64,000 nucleotides of DNA from Erysipelotrichaceae bacterium. GTDB lineage: Bacteria; Bacillota_I; Bacilli_A; Erysipelotrichales; Coprobacillaceae. Made by a program: the position numbers and the translations under genes. A model generated the notes under the pieces. It was not told where the DNA came from. It made no database searches and saw only the letters and a program-made list of their open reading frames with translations. Positions 9,731-15,737 of this stretch are shown here, one piece after another (position 1 is the stretch's first letter; every line of letters begins with the position of its first letter). The stretch lies in the NCBI GenBank assembly GCA_021770925.1, contig JAETPY010000001.1, forward strand, positions 1 to 64,000, written 5' to 3'.

Positions 9731-10504
9731 CTATATTTTCTTTTTATATTTATCATAAATGATTTTTAATCCTTTAAATGTAAGATCAGGATCATATATA
9801 TCAATTAACTTAGTTTCATTAAAAATAATTCGTCCTAATCCACCAGTTGAAATAACTGTTAGATCTTGACCATATTCTTTTTTTATTTTATTAATAATAT
9901 TTTCGGTTAAACCAATATAACCATAAACAATTCCTGACTGCATACTTGTAACTGTATTTTTAGCAATAATGTTTTTAGGTTTTTTTATTTCAATTTCTGG
10001 AAGTTTTGCAGCCTGACTTGAAAGAGCATTAATACTAATTCCAATTCCTGGAGCGGTAGCACCACCTAAAAAATCACCACTATCATTAACAACATCAAAA
10101 GTTGTTGCAGTACCAAAATCAATTACTAGACATGGTCCGCCATAAATATAGTAGGCACCAGCTGCATCAACTAATCGATCGGCACCTAATTCTTTAGGAT
10201 TATCGATTTTAATGCGAATACCCGTTTTAATGCCTGGTCCTACAATGATTGGTTCGCGGTTAAAATATTTTTTAATTGAATTAGTAAAAGAATACATGAT
10301 TTTTGGAACTACAGAGGCAATAATTATGTCTTCAATTTCATCGACAAGAATATTTGAAGCATTCAAGAAACTTAACAACATAAATCCATATTCATCAGAA
10401 GTACGTTCTAACTTAGTTGTTAAACGATAATTATCAATAATTACATCCTTATCAACTAATCCCATTGTAATATTTGTATTACCAATATCAATTACAATTA
10501 ACAT
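9731..10504 (-). CDS. coaX: type III pantothenate kinase
   Basis: Phosphorylates pantothenate with ATP, the first step of CoA synthesis. CoaX enzymes are not feedback-inhibited by CoA. The 257 residues show the phosphate motif DIGNTN (6-11), the adenosine/Asp motif region GADRLVDAAGAYYIYGG, DFGTATTFDVV and GGATAPGIGIS. It starts 7 bp inside the end of coaBC, with its own GGAGG. Last gene of the panT-coaBC-coaX unit. Confidence 0.95.
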   Translation of the reverse strand: MLIVIDIGNTNITMGLVDKDVIIDNYRLTTKLERTSDEYGFMLLSFLNASNILVDEIEDIIIASVVPKIMYSFTNSIKKYFNREPIIVGPGIKTGIRIKIDNPKELGADRLVDAAGAYYIYGGPCLVIDFGTATTFDVVNDSGDFLGGATAPGIGISINALSSQAAKLPEIEIKKPKNIIAKNTVTSMQSGIVYGYIGLTENIINKIKKEYGQDLTVISTGGLGRIIFNETKLIDIYDPDLTFKGLKIIYDKYKKKI

Positions 10505-11685
10505 GATTTTTCCTCCTTAATTTTAATCAATTTTTTTAAGATCAAATCACTTAAGTTATTTTTTGTCATTAATTCAATTTCCTGAATATCTTTTCCAGTT
10601 ATAAATGTTACTTTGTTAGTGTCGTTTTTAAATCCTGCACCAGGTTCTTTTAAATTATTAGCGACTAGTAAATCACAATTTTTATGATTAAATTTTTCTT
10701 TAGCATTCTTTATTAGGTTTTCTGTCTCCATTGCAAAACCACAAATAATCTGATTAGTTTTATGTTTTCCTAAATAAGCTAAAATATCATCATTTTTTAC
10801 CAATTCTAAAGTTAAGGTTTGTTCTTTCTTCTTTATTTTATCTTTAGATATTTCTTTGATACGATAATCACCAACAGCAGCAGCTTTAATAATAAAATCC
10901 TGCTTTTGATAGTATTCTTTAACTGCTTCAAACATTTCTAAAGCTGATTCAACTTTAATAATTTTTACACCATATGGAAAATCAAGGGTAGTAGGACCAG
11001 TAATTAGAGTTACTTTAGCCCCTAATTCAAAAGCTCTCTTGGCAAGAGCGTATCCCATTTTACCACTTGAATGATTAGTGATATATCTTACTGGATCAAG
11101 AGCTTCTTGCGTTGGTCCAGCAGTTATTAAAACTTTTTTATTTTTTAATGGTTTATCACTTAAACAATATTCAATCATTGCGATAATTTGATTTAAATCT
11201 GCAAGTTTACCTCTTCCAGTATCCCCACATGCTAAAAGCCCGTATCCAGGTTCTACGAATTTAATCCCATATGTTTTACACCTTTCAATGTTGCGTTGTG
11301 TTGCTAGATTATCATACATATTAACGTTCATGGCTGGCGCAATTAATTTAGGGCAGGTGGCTGCAATAAAAGATGATGTCAAGACATCATCACAGATACC
11401 ATTTGCTATTTTACCAATAATGTTAGCAGTTGCAGGAATAATAACAAAACAATCAGCTTTTTTAGCATAACTAATATGCTTAATTTCATAACCATCATCA
11501 TCAAAATCATCAATTAAAACTGGTTTATTAATTAAAGCTCCTAAAGTAAGGGGACTAATAAATTTTGTTGCATTATTTGTCATAATTACTTCTACATCAT
11601 ATTCTTTCTTTTTTAAAGCTCTGACGAGTTCACAAGCTTTATATGCGGCGATACTGCCACTAATTCCTACAACTATCGTCTTCAT
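10498..11685 (-). CDS. coaBC: bifunctional phosphopantothenoylcysteine decarboxylase / phosphopantothenate-cysteine ligase
   Basis: Ligates cysteine to 4'-phosphopantothenate and decarboxylates the product, steps two and three of CoA synthesis. The 395 residues have an N-terminal flavoprotein CoaC domain (GISGSIAAYK; PATANIIGKIANG; PAMNVNMYDN; GLLACGDTGRGKL with the catalytic Cys) and a C-terminal CoaB domain beginning near 185 (ITAGPTQEALDPVRYITNHSSGKMG). It follows the ECF gene by one base and overlaps coaX. Confidence 0.96.
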   Translation of the reverse strand: MKTIVVGISGSIAAYKACELVRALKKKEYDVEVIMTNNATKFISPLTLGALINKPVLIDDFDDDGYEIKHISYAKKADCFVIIPATANIIGKIANGICDDVLTSSFIAATCPKLIAPAMNVNMYDNLATQRNIERCKTYGIKFVEPGYGLLACGDTGRGKLADLNQIIAMIEYCLSDKPLKNKKVLITAGPTQEALDPVRYITNHSSGKMGYALAKRAFELGAKVTLITGPTTLDFPYGVKIIKVESALEMFEAVKEYYQKQDFIIKAAAVGDYRIKEISKDKIKKKEQTLTLELVKNDDILAYLGKHKTNQIICGFAMETENLIKNAKEKFNHKNCDLLVANNLKEPGAGFKNDTNKVTFITGKDIQEIELMTKNNLSDLILKKLIKIKEEKSC

Positions 11686-11686
11686 T

Positions 11687-12295
11687 TTAATTTCCTTTCT
11701 TTGTAAACATTAATAAAGGCTGGCAAACAAGAACTGCAATCACTGTTCCTACAGCTGCCTCTAATAAACCACTGCTAGTAACAATTCCAATTAAATAAGT
11801 CATCAATAAATTAAAATCCTGACCAATTGCCTGAGCATAGCTATGACCAAAAATCACATAAATTCCACTTAATACTAAGATAGTATTAGTTAATGCACCT
11901 GCCAAACTAGCAATGATCATTCCTGCATATTTATTCCATTTATGTTTGGTAACCTGTTCAAAAATAAAGCCAGTAACAAAACCAATCATTACTCTAGGTA
12001 AAACTGCAATTACAGCACTTAAAATGTTTCCACTAATAAATGGTGAAAAAACAAATGAGGTTACAGTTGGATTGATCGTATTGTAAAACAAACTGCTTAA
12101 TCCAAAAACCAGTCCGATAATCGACCCGCCTTTTTTACCTAAAATAATTCCGGCAATAATCACTGGAATATGCAATGTTGTTGCACGCAATGGACCAATT
12201 GGAATATATCCTAAAAATGGAATAAATACAAGCAGCATTTCAATTGCAATAAACATTGCATACAAAACAAGATCTTTAGTTTTTTTATTTTTCAT
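11687..12295 (-). CDS. ECF transporter S component, probably pantothenate-specific (PanT-like)
   Basis: Substrate-binding membrane subunit of an energy-coupling factor vitamin transporter. The 202 residues form about six membrane helices, with an N-terminal ALPHA-type segment LVLYAMFIAIEMLLVFIPFLG and RATTLHIPVIIAGIILGKKGG. Pantothenate is inferred from its place directly ahead of coaBC-coaX, the usual setting of PanT. The shared EcfAAT module is not in the window. The ATG at 12295 lies 5 bases after GGAGG; the GTG at 12307 overlaps that site, so I reject it. Confidence 0.82.
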   Translation of the reverse strand: MKNKKTKDLVLYAMFIAIEMLLVFIPFLGYIPIGPLRATTLHIPVIIAGIILGKKGGSIIGLVFGLSSLFYNTINPTVTSFVFSPFISGNILSAVIAVLPRVMIGFVTGFIFEQVTKHKWNKYAGMIIASLAGALTNTILVLSGIYVIFGHSYAQAIGQDFNLLMTYLIGIVTSSGLLEAAVGTVIAVLVCQPLLMFTKKGN

Positions 12296-12364
12296 CTTTT
12301 CCTCCACTACCGTTCATTTAGATACGGTGCTAATAATATTTTTGTTATAAAATAATTAGATAGT

Positions 12365-12436
12365 TAATACCTGGTTATTACTAAATTTTTATCTTAATAA
12401 CAAGGTTATTATAGTATGATATTGCTCGTTTTTCAA
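12365..12436 (-). promoter_or_regulatory. panT-coaBC-coaX promoter with two palindromic boxes
   Basis: Minus strand: -35 TTGAAA (12436-12431), 17-bp spacer, -10 TATAAT (12413-12408). A perfect palindrome, TAATAAC-AAG-GTTATTA (12395-12411), overlaps the -10 and the start point. A related imperfect copy ending in GTTATTA (12365-12380) lies 31 bp further downstream, about three helical turns. The arrangement is that of a repressor site acting on this pantothenate/CoA operon. The regulator is unknown. Confidence 0.6.
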
Positions 12437-12494
12437 TCATTAAGATAATGCATTTTGATTAGTTTAGTGGTAAAATGTTAGTCAAGGAGGTTTT

Positions 12495-13052
12495 ATGATG
12501 AAAAAAATAGCAGTTTTATTTCGTGATGGATTTGAAGAACTTGAAGCATTGTCAGTAGTAGATGTAATGCGTCGGGCTAATATTGAATGTACCATGGTTG
12601 GGATGGATAAATTAGAAGTAACTAGTAGTCATCAGATAAAAATATCAATGGATTGTCAATATGATAAAACAATTGAAACATATGATGCTGTAGTTATTCC
12701 TGGAGGAATGCCTGGAGCTGTTAATTTAAGAAATGATCCAAGGGTAATTGAATTAATACAAAAATTTAATGGTGATGATAAAATTATTGGAGCGATTTGT
12801 GCTGGGCCGATTGTTTTAGAAAAAGCGGGAGTAATTAAGGGAAAGACAGTTACCTGCTATCCTGGTTTTGAAACCCAATTAATTAGTGCTAATTATCAAG
12901 AGGCACTTGTCTTAAAAGATGAAAATATTGTTACTGGCAAGGGACCCGCTGCTGCCTTGGCTTTTGCTTATACTCTTTTAGAAGCTCTTGGAATTAACAG
13001 TTCAGAGATTAAAGAAGGGATGCAGTATAAATACTTGGAAGAAAATATTTAA
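12495..13052 (+). CDS. DJ-1/PfpI family protein
   Basis: 185 residues of the DJ-1/ThiJ/PfpI fold. The nucleophile elbow is GAICAGP with its Cys near 100, and an acidic residue near the N-terminus in FRDGFEELEALSVVDV matches the DJ-1 Glu. Members act as deglycases, chaperones or redox sensors; the role here is not known. Two ATGs (12495 and 12498) follow AAGGAGG; the second has the better spacing. It stands alone between the two pantothenate operons and is divergent from panT. Confidence 0.88.
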   Translation: MMKKIAVLFRDGFEELEALSVVDVMRRANIECTMVGMDKLEVTSSHQIKISMDCQYDKTIETYDAVVIPGGMPGAVNLRNDPRVIELIQKFNGDDKIIGAICAGPIVLEKAGVIKGKTVTCYPGFETQLISANYQEALVLKDENIVTGKGPAAALAFAYTLLEALGINSSEIKEGMQYKYLEENI

Positions 13053-13065
13053 AAAAGATTTATTT

Positions 13066-13091
13066 GGAGATGTCCATAGGTCATCTCTTTT
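13066..13091 (+). terminator. intrinsic terminator after the DJ-1 gene
   Basis: Arms GAGATG and CATCTC with an inner CC/GG pair, followed by TTTT. Confidence 0.75.
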
Positions 13092-13095
13092 AATA

Positions 13096-13125
13096 TTGAC
13101 AAATAATTATTAACATGCTTATAAT
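13096..13125 (+). promoter_or_regulatory. consensus sigma-A promoter of the panD leader
   Basis: -35 TTGACA (13096-13101), 18-bp spacer, -10 TATAAT (13120-13125). The predicted start is near 13132, exactly where the structured leader begins. Confidence 0.85.
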
Positions 13126-13126
13126 G

Positions 13127-13288
13127 AGCGGCGGAGATAGTATTTGGTAACAAAACTATACTCTATCTGATTCGCTGTTATTTCATATAAAATATATTGA
13201 TAAAGAGCTTATATTTTTAAAAATGGGACTCGAGAAATACAAATAGAGTTTAAGCATTTCAGGGTAGTACCCTGGTAAATGCTTTTTT
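13127..13288 (+). promoter_or_regulatory. structured panD-panC leader RNA with terminator (candidate pan-motif riboswitch)
   Basis: The transcript opens with a folded element: outer AGCG/CGCT pairing, inner AGATAG/CTATCT pairing and an apical TTTG-GTAA-CAAA hairpin (13127-13176). An intrinsic terminator ends just before panD (13252-13288; arms AAGCATTT/AAATGCTT and CAGGGT/ACCCTG, six T). ACTCTAT at 13160-13166, in the 3' side of the first element, is complementary to ATAGAGT at 13243-13249 just before the terminator, which could give an alternative pairing. A 'pan' RNA motif is known upstream of panB, panC and panD in Firmicutes; I cannot check its consensus here. Confidence 0.6.
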
Positions 13289-13309
13289 AATTAAGAAAGG
13301 ATATATGAA

Positions 13310-13702
13310 ATGACGATAGAAATGTTAAAAGGAAAGATTCATCGGGCTACAGTTGTTCAAGCTGAACTAGACTATGTAGGAAGTATTACGATTGATGAAG
13401 AATTGCTTGAAGCAGCTGGAATTTTGGAATATGAAAAAGTCCAGATTGTAGATATTAATAATGGCAGCAGATTTGAAACATATACTATCTGTGCTAAAAG
13501 AGGCAGTGGTATGATTTGTTTAAATGGAGGGGCTGCAAGATGTGTAAATACTGGGGATAAAGTTATTATTATGGCTTATGGAAACTATGATCTAGAGGAA
13601 GCCAGATCGCATAAACCAGCAGTTGTCTTTGTGGATGAGGAGAATAGGATTAGTCGTGTAACTAATTATGAAAAACATGGCTTATTAAAAGATATGAAAT
13701 AG
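13310..13702 (+). CDS. panD: aspartate 1-decarboxylase precursor
   Basis: Makes beta-alanine from aspartate. The 130-residue pro-enzyme self-cleaves at Gly24-Ser25 (YVGSITID), the same position as in E. coli, to give the pyruvoyl group. [21 protein letters not shown] and [20 protein letters not shown] are typical. The ATG follows GAAAGGA. First gene of panD-panC-panS, preceded by a long leader with a terminator, so attenuation is likely. panC begins 62 bases downstream. Confidence 0.96.
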
Positions 13703-13764
13703 TCAGCAGTGAAATCAGTTAAGAGTACTATCTCTAAATCCATAAGAAAGAAGAGAGTTTAAAG

Positions 13765-14604
13765 ATGCAGATAACAAAAACAGTAGAACAAACAAGAAAA
13801 CTTGTTAAAGAATGGAAAAAAGAAGGGAAGACAATTGGTTTAGTACCAACAATGGGATTTCTTCATGAAGGACATTCTAGTTTGATTAAGAAATGTCGTG
13901 AAGGAAATGATATTGTTGTAGTATCTATTTTTGTCAATCCTACACAGTTTGGTCCAAATGAAGATTTAGAAGCATATCCACGTGATTTTAAATGTGATAG
14001 CAAACTATGTGAACGTTTAGGAGTAGATTTGATTTTTCATCCAGAACCTGAAAATATGTATTGTGATCCTCATGCATATGTGAATATTGATTTACTTTCA
14101 GCAACACTTTGTGGTAAATCAAGGCCAGTTCATTTTCAAGGTGTTTGTACAGTAGTAGCAAAACTATTTAACATTGTTACACCTAACAAAGCATATTTTG
14201 GTCAAAAAGATGCTCAACAATTAGCGATTATTCGTAAAATGGTACAGGATTTAAATTTTGATATTGAGATTATTGGATGTCCAATTATTCGTGAAGAAGA
14301 CGGTCTTGCAAAATCTTCTCGAAACACATATCTTAATTTTGAAGAAAGAAAAGCAGCACAATGTTTATCAAAAGCTGTAAAAGAAGGTCGAAAAGTTATT
14401 TATCAAGGATGTTTGGTTAGAGATGTTTTAGATGCAATGGAAAATATTATTAAGGAACAGCCTTTAGCAAAGATTGATTATATTTCAATAGTTGATGCAT
14501 TGACTATGCAGCCAGTCGAAAAAGTTGATCGAAATGTTCTTGTTGCAATGGCGGTTTATATTGGTAAGACTCGTTTAATTGATAATTTTTCATATGAGGT
14601 ATAG
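13765..14604 (+). CDS. panC: pantothenate synthetase (pantoate-beta-alanine ligase)
   Basis: Joins pantoate and beta-alanine with ATP to form pantothenate. The 279 residues include the nucleotidyltransferase signature LVPTMGFLHEGHSSLI, FVNPTQFGPNEDLEAYPR, VAKLFNIVTPNKAYFGQKDAQQ and the KSSRN loop. The pantoate-forming enzymes panB and panE are absent from the window, so pantoate must come from elsewhere, either made by distant genes or imported by the next gene's product if that were intact. Confidence 0.96.
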   Translation: MQITKTVEQTRKLVKEWKKEGKTIGLVPTMGFLHEGHSSLIKKCREGNDIVVVSIFVNPTQFGPNEDLEAYPRDFKCDSKLCERLGVDLIFHPEPENMYCDPHAYVNIDLLSATLCGKSRPVHFQGVCTVVAKLFNIVTPNKAYFGQKDAQQLAIIRKMVQDLNFDIEIIGCPIIREEDGLAKSSRNTYLNFEERKAAQCLSKAVKEGRKVIYQGCLVRDVLDAMENIIKEQPLAKIDYISIVDALTMQPVEKVDRNVLVAMAVYIGKTRLIDNFSYEV

Positions 14605-14607
14605 CCA

Positions 14608-15588
14608 ATGGAAAAGATAATAGAAAAAATAGGGAAGAGCAGTTCGCTGTTAACAAAATATATTGGAGTTATTATTATTTGTTTTTCTATATTAGCTTTT
14701 TTTATTCCAAAAGGGTTTGCCTGGACAACAGATTATACTTCTATTTTTCTAGGGGCAGCAATGTTTGGAATGGGATTGACGATTAAAATGAATGATTTTC
14801 AAATTGTTTTTTCACGACCTAAAGAGGTTATTATTGGCTGTGTGGCACAGTATACAATTATGCCTTTAGCAGCATGACTATTAGCAGTCGGATTTCAATT
14901 GCCAGAAGATTTAGCAATAGGAGTTATTCTTGTGGGATGCTGTCCAGGAGGAACAGCTAGTAATGTTATCACTTATATTGCAGGTGGTGATGTACCTCTT
15001 TCAGTTGGGATGACAATTGTATCAACTTTGATTGCACCGCTTATGACACCTTTTTTAGTATATATTTTAGCAGGAGCATGGGTAGAGGTGACATTCTGGT
15101 CAATGGTTCTATCAGTTGTAAAAGTTATTTTGATTCCTGTCTTGCTAGGTATTTTGATTCGTGGTTTATTGGAAAAACAAATTCAAAAAATTTCTAAAAT
15201 TTTACCTCTTATTTCAGTAGTATCGATTGTAATGATTATTTCTGGGATTGTTGCAATTAATGCTCAAAAAATAGTTAGCTGTGGTGTTTTGGTATTATGT
15301 ATAGTTGTTCTTCATAATTTATTTGGGATGATACTTGGTCTTATTGCTGCAAAAATTTTGAAAGTAGAATATTCTAAAGCAACTGCAATCGCAATTGAAG
15401 TAGGAATGCAAAACAGTGGCTTAGCAGTATCACTAGCAACAGCAAATTTTGCTGCAAACCCACTTGCCACACTTCCAGGAGCAGTCTTTAGTGTTTGGCA
15501 TAATATTTCTGGTTCTATATTTGCAAGTATCAGATGTCGTTCTTTAAATAAGGATGAAGCTATAGAATTAAACTATAAAATTAAATGA
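14608..15588 (+). pseudogene. PanS-like BASS-family carrier interrupted by an in-frame TGA
   Basis: Reading through a TGA at 14875-14877 gives one continuous 326-residue bile acid:sodium symporter (BASS) family protein of about ten membrane helices. Family motifs occur on both sides: GAAMFGMGLTIKMNDF before, ILVGCCPGGTASNVITYIAGGD and GMQNSGLAVSLATANF after. The flanking residues read MPLAA-stop-LLAVGF, so TGG to TGA (Trp) is the simplest change. It starts three bases after panC. The BASS protein PanS of Salmonella is a pantoate transporter, which fits this operon. The second half has a Met at 14899 but no ribosome binding site. A sequencing error is possible. Confidence 0.85.
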
Positions 15589-15688
15589 AACATTAATTAT
15601 TGATGATTATTCCATTTACTTATTATTGATCAAAGATCAAAAAGATATGAACAACCAGACTCTTGCTAGATAATGAATAATTAAAAAT

Positions 15689-15737
15689 GAGGGATTTCTA
15701 ACTGCTGTTTTATCAGTGGTATAAGAAATCTCTTTTT
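15689..15737 (+). terminator. terminator of the panD-panC-panS operon
   Basis: Long hairpin: outer GGATTTCT/AGAAATCT and inner CTGCTG/CAGTGG with wobble pairs, followed by TTTTT. It lies 100 bases after panS. Confidence 0.75.

Follow-up and report, generated by a model that had tools for sequence, protein, structure and literature searches.

The panD-panC locus

The window, meaning the whole 64,000-nucleotide stretch of DNA that was analysed, carries on its forward strand a panD-panC-panS operon preceded by a structured leader. In this leader a pan element is placed between a promoter matching the consensus at 12/12 positions and a strong intrinsic terminator, 5' of panD-panC-panS, and both the promoter and the terminator are compatible with a transcribed pan element in the predicted 5' leader. 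The features of the locus are as follows.

13096 to 13125, + strand: promoter of the sigma-70 type, TTGACA - 18 nt - TATAAT (12/12 consensus match)
13134 to 13163, + strand: pan hairpin 1, GAG-AUAGU-[A]-UUU...AAA-ACUAU-[A]-CUC, with one bulged A per strand (Rfam RF01749)
13164 to 13204, + strand: linker between the two pan hairpins, recurring in relatives
13177 to 13189, + strand: linker arm GUUAUUUCAUAUA of the start-codon helix (from folding, own versus swapped partners, slides and two-sided changes)
13205 to 13231, + strand: pan hairpin 2, GAG-CUUAU-[A]-UU...AA-AUGGG-[A]-CUC (Rfam RF01749)
13252 to 13289, + strand: intrinsic terminator, stem at 13252-13284 plus a U6 tail (-14.9 kcal/mol, z = -4.4)
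13295 to 13302, + strand: panD ribosome binding site GAAAGGAU (from sequence)
13302 to 13314, + strand: panD start region UAUAUGAAAUGAC, 3' arm of the start-codon helix, with the start codon at 13310-13312 (same tests as the linker arm)
13310 to 13702, + strand: panD, aspartate 1-decarboxylase (Pfam PF02261, E = 5e-53)
13765 to 14604, + strand: panC, pantoate-beta-alanine ligase (Pfam PF02569, E = 1e-111)
14608 to 15588, + strand: panS-like BASS-family transporter gene with an in-frame TGA at 14875-14877 (Pfam PF01758, E = 5e-51 with the TGA read through)

The consensus promoter reported in the initial annotation is borne out, and its match is unique within 12300-15700 in a promoter scan. The coincidence of the transcript start with a folded element, also reported there, holds as well, the start being predicted at about 13132, 1-2 nt 5' of pan hairpin 1. 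A -10-like box is found about 7-8 nt 5' of this hairpin throughout the 14 leaders examined, so that the transcript is expected to begin at its foot.

PanS is a carrier of ketopantoate as well as pantoate, and a relative binds pantoate (PMC10645422, PMC12570885); a BASS transporter therefore fits a pantoate-dependent operon. At the position of the in-frame TGA relatives have Trp, and the same gene is frameshifted in strain VE202-01 (L005) and intact in T. saccharogumia (L015); the TGA may reflect either recent loss of the transporter or an assembly error. A CoA gene neighbourhood is present on the minus strand at 9731-12307, comprising an ECF transporter S component (11687-12307), coaBC and a type III pantothenate kinase; the promoter of this group, at 12436-12408, matches the consensus at 11/12 positions, and its leader gave no pan match. 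On the reverse strand of L004, about 60-90 nt 5' of a gene for an ECF S component resembling that at 11687-12307, there is a weak pan match (32 bits, below the cut-off) with a single pan-like hairpin, CAG-CCTTG-A-TC...GA-CAGGG-A-CTG, which may be due to chance.

A pan RNA with two non-equivalent hairpins

The leader is a genuine pan RNA. The initial annotation had mentioned a pan motif ahead of pantothenate genes and suggested a search with the Rfam covariance model; that search matches RF01749 to 13134-13235 (model positions 1-92) with 43.7 bits, above the gathering cut-off of 36.2 bits. This is the sole Rfam match at the gathering level in the window and the sole pan match in its genome; a SNORD51 match at 12487-12542, under its cut-off and of the wrong kind, was rejected. 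The hairpins are in tandem (13134-13163 and 13205-13231), two bulged A residues interrupt the stem of each, and panD-panC lie downstream, as described for a motif found upstream of panB, panC or panD operons. Each stem consists of 3 bp, 5 bp and distal pairs, and on both strands the 5-bp helix is followed, on its 3' side, by the bulged A. A bare descriptor of the pan hairpin is unspecific, giving about 15 chance hits per strand per 64 kb; specificity comes from the tandem arrangement together with its sequence and the Rfam score.

Hairpin 1 folds beyond chance (z = -4.4), and in an alignment of 10 leaders 100% of its cells are paired, with 7/10 pairs invariant. Hairpin 2 is weak alone (-4.2 kcal/mol); in the same 10 leaders 98% of its cells are paired and 4/10 pairs have two-sided changes, for example CUUAU/AUGGG versus CCUGU/ACAGG. 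The two halves of the element are thus not equivalent, hairpin 1 being near-constant while hairpin 2 varies with compensation. In Lachnospiraceae MAG UBA3316 (L013), a Clostridiales-1 RNA (RF01699, 57 bits, cut-off 48) occupies positions 2116-2276, mostly within the loop of pan hairpin 1 as if inserted there, with its 3' end extending beyond the hairpin.

Hairpin 2, the other half of the element, had been overlooked in the initial annotation. The pairings that had been nested within the folded element are replaced by others: AGCG of the proposed AGCG/CGCT pair (13127-13130) lies 5' of the predicted transcript start and neither half is conserved in the sister species, while AGATAG/CTATCT represents a different register from the conserved GAG-AUAGU/ACUAU-A-CUC and is broken in L005 and L015 (CGATCT). 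Covariation among leaders, which had been suggested as a check, is found in hairpin 2 and in the linker-start helix described below; the pairings originally proposed are not conserved.

Distribution and evolution

The genome of the window belongs to the genus Thomasclavelia, and its closest PanC relatives outside its own genome (86%) are those of T. saccharogumia DSM 17460 (L015) and strain VE202-01 (L005), followed by those of Lachnospiraceae such as Blautia and Faecalicatena (72-80%). In the PanC tree, the three Thomasclavelia sequences are nested in a Lachnospiraceae clade (support 100/99 for the 13-row clade, with weak branching within it). Both panD and the pan RNA are confined to the same 3/9 Thomasclavelia genomes. 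This co-occurrence and the placement of PanC fit a scenario in which operon and leader were gained together by horizontal transfer, and such a joint gain would mildly favour a self-contained sensor, an operon-encoded sensor or a housekeeping protein. As panB was found in none of the nine Thomasclavelia genomes, pantoate and beta-alanine appear to be the compounds from which the operon completes pantothenate. Pantoate is presumably imported, and the pantothenate pathway of these bacteria is apparently partial and horizontally acquired, tying the pan element to the vitamin B5 economy of gut bacteria.

Searches of mobile elements yielded one truncated pan hairpin and no PanD or PanC in viral contigs, an Enterococcus faecium panBCD and no close leader in plasmids, and no usable pan leader in phage records. 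Searches of genomes of the order, class and phylum returned almost no further pan RNAs, such large searches being visibly less sensitive (one missed G004 and G005, which were found in another search).

What the hairpins may sense

The pan motif was described by Weinberg et al. in 2010, who gave its riboswitch status as "?" and took its simple structure and dimeric arrangement to suggest a dimeric protein-binding motif (PMC2864571); the statement in the initial annotation that pan had been proposed as a riboswitch is therefore too strong. Two transcriptome papers list pan 5' of panBCD and give no mechanism (PMC5670726, PMC4342826), and a search of the literature found no mechanism for pan RNAs.

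We give about an even chance to a protein sensor, in which the tandem hairpins with their bulged A residues would be read by a dimeric RNA-binding protein that relays the status of the pathway. The stems are simple and usually in tandem, and their 5-bp helix has an A bulged from each of its strands (PMC2864571), and the sequence of hairpin 1 is nearly invariant, as a protein site would be. However, the hairpins are not equivalent, since hairpin 1 keeps its sequence whereas hairpin 2 keeps its pairing alone, and the RNA and the operon appear to have entered Thomasclavelia together, most relatives there having neither, so that a dedicated chromosomal regulator would have to pre-exist, be encoded by the operon or be a housekeeping protein.

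The same non-equivalence, together with the recurring linker and the inheritance of the pan element and operon as a unit, would suit a riboswitch in which the hairpins fold jointly into an aptamer for pantothenate, pantoate, beta-alanine, CoA or a relative, and CoA was named in a 2022 review among the cofactors that have no known riboswitch (PMC9971707). This reading is tentative, with somewhat less than an even chance of being correct: the two short hairpins leave little room for a pocket, the original authors did not rate the motif beyond a question mark, no report of ligand binding was found for pan in the literature, and in place of the complex conserved architecture of an aptamer there are two simple bulged hairpins.

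A helix between the linker and the panD start region

In the window, 13177-13189 pairs with 13302-13314 in 13 consecutive pairs that include the panD start codon. The linker-start helix spans hairpin 2 and the terminator in the folded leaders, and it is part of the minimum-energy fold of 8/12 panD-first leaders, window included, the 12 leaders representing about 9 independent groups. The initial annotation, which had pointed to two alternative folds in this leader, overlooked it.

The register of the helix was set from the window and then tested on the other leaders, whose linkers were aligned by eye, by homology to the window. Across 9 groups, the leaders' own partners form 80 pairs in the window register versus a mean of 70.6 when partners are swapped (exact p = 0.0029); 71 Watson-Crick pairs form in this register, compared with 29-39 at every other slide. 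Two-sided compensatory changes are present at 8/14 pairs of the helix in 10 leaders, with 68.6% of cells paired; Blautia, for instance, has AUCUUAUAUA/UAUAUAAGAU in place of AUUUCAUAUA/UAUAUGAAAU of the window, AUUUC/GAAAU of the window being AUCUU/AAGAU there. The whole structure of these 10 leaders was matched or beaten by 0/500 shuffles, and its pairing dropped from 86.5% to at most 48% when slid. When linkers were shuffled singly, significance was reached only for the window and its close relatives L005, L015, L006 and L009, and when registers were scanned without bias, what set the helix apart was its high pairing together with a high z, the z alone not being unique.

In the model of the full leader, the start codon is paired with a probability of 1.00 and the linker-start helix forms with 0.98, the former falling to 0.38 when the linker is forced open. 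A covarying helix that covers the start codon or ribosome binding site, the mark of a translational switch, is found here. Among panD-first leaders, the helix is not shown by L007 or L011 and is present only out of register in L013. In the panC-first leaders L008 and L017, where panD has been lost from before panC, the pan element and terminator are retained directly 5' of panC, the linker mismatches the start region and the linker-start pairing is absent. Judged by sequence comparison, the linker-start helix is the best-supported regulatory pairing in the leader; it seems to be a feature of panD-first leaders of Thomasclavelia and Lachnospiraceae, and is new here.

The terminator and candidate antiterminators

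The strong intrinsic terminator that had been noted just before the panD ribosome binding site is real; it was missed by a simple terminator scanner and found by folding. Terminators are present in 11/14 leaders folded; the exceptions are L007 and L014, which have none, and L013, which has no convincing one. In models of transcripts cut at the apex of the terminator, pairing between the linker and the 5' arm of the terminator is predicted at 7/10 loci, the candidate antiterminator often being CUGA just 3' of hairpin 1 with UCAG of the terminator. Because this pairing is not above swapped (p = 0.76) or shuffled controls, we infer the antiterminator step from predicted folds of the nascent RNA, in which it is without statistical support. 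A scan of hairpin 1, the linker, hairpin 2 and the spacer against the 5' arm of the terminator found no covarying antiterminator, and a 4-bp pairing of hairpin 2 with the terminator was borderline (p = 0.014-0.05). The sequence AAUAC recurs after hairpin 2 and is complementary to the invariant GUAUU of hairpin 1, a possible pairing that was set aside because one side never varies. Pairing of the linker with the terminator would compete with the linker-start helix, since both together would make a pseudoknot, and through this competition one strand, the linker, would do the switching.

The inference of the initial annotation that the leader attenuates panD-panC survives in part, terminator-based attenuation being plausible and the antiterminator pairing proposed for it being unsupported. 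That pan acts by attenuation of transcription alone, through an antiterminator and with the linker-start complementarity incidental, is unlikely. The presence of terminators in most leaders of the clade, including the panC-first L008 and L017 that have no start helix, would agree with it, as would the predicted pairing between linker and terminator 5' arm in the truncated transcripts, but it is the linker-start helix that has two-sided changes and beats swapped partners, whereas the linker-terminator pairing fails against the same kind of control, and three leaders (L007, L013 and L014) have no convincing terminator. Distinctly doubtful is the broader idea that pan is a self-contained, mobile element that senses the pantothenate/CoA pathway and has a linker shared by an antiterminator and the start-masking helix, so that a single event at the hairpins would set transcription and translation together; were such a pan to bind a metabolite of the pathway directly, the RNA sensor that is missing for the CoA route would have been found. 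The switch originally proposed, in which ACTCTAT (13160-13166) pairs with ATAGAGT (13243-13249) as an antiterminator, is highly improbable, for although the 7-bp complementarity exists and is transiently predicted in one intermediate (a transcript ending at 13250, peak probability 0.44), ATAGAGT is missing from the sister species L005 and L015, the pairing has a probability of 0.000 in the full-leader model, and it would form upstream of the terminator stem with no overlap.

Proposed mechanism and comparison with known systems

The leader probably regulates panD-panC(-panS) in cis as a pan element, through an expression platform of two tiers in which a terminator is combined with masking of the start codon; we hold this reading with moderate confidence. 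Its computed parts are the pan membership, the terminator and the linker-start helix with its compensatory changes. Given the compensation in the helix and the excess of pairing with own over swapped partners, an OFF platform of two tiers seems to exist in this clade. Transcription would begin at the foot of pan hairpin 1, and the two bulged-A hairpins would act as the putative sensor. The linker would pair with the panD start region, masking the start codon and enclosing hairpin 2 and the terminator; because the helix encloses the terminator, the OFF state would have the terminator formed and the start codon masked, so that any transcript reading through would carry a masked start codon, which would be expected to lower translation. 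In the ON state, the linker would be held elsewhere, possibly against the 5' arm of the terminator or by whatever binds the hairpins. The sensor may respond to the supply of pantothenate or CoA, with OFF as the likely direction when supply is ample. The linker-start helix allows a mutation-plus-compensation approach that does not depend on the identity of the ligand, and it points to the part of the RNA that must move upon occupation of the sensor.

The pan motif has been known since 2010, and the clade-specific two-tier output was not found described in the literature; the linker-start pairing is not mentioned in the main text of PMC2864571 or, supplements aside, in later pan papers. The element resembles other members of RF01749 in scoring above the cut-off, in having two stems in tandem, both with a pair of bulged A residues, and in its position in the 5' leader of panD/panC. 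It differs in that the linker in the window would be part of the output, pairing with the panD start codon across the terminator.

Attenuators of the T-box, PyrR and TRAP types are leader RNAs of biosynthetic operons in which a terminator is opposed by a competing fold. The present leader likewise has a terminator and a competing fold and precedes a biosynthetic operon, but has no covarying antiterminator that could be found, and no match to T-box, PyrR or any other Rfam leader is present in the window. Some riboswitches and protein-binding leaders combine a terminator with masking of the start site, and the pan leader resembles these as a single leader that could act on both transcription and translation. 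Unlike in those leaders, the masking strand in the window would come from between the two sensor hairpins, more than 110 nt upstream, and would enclose the terminator.
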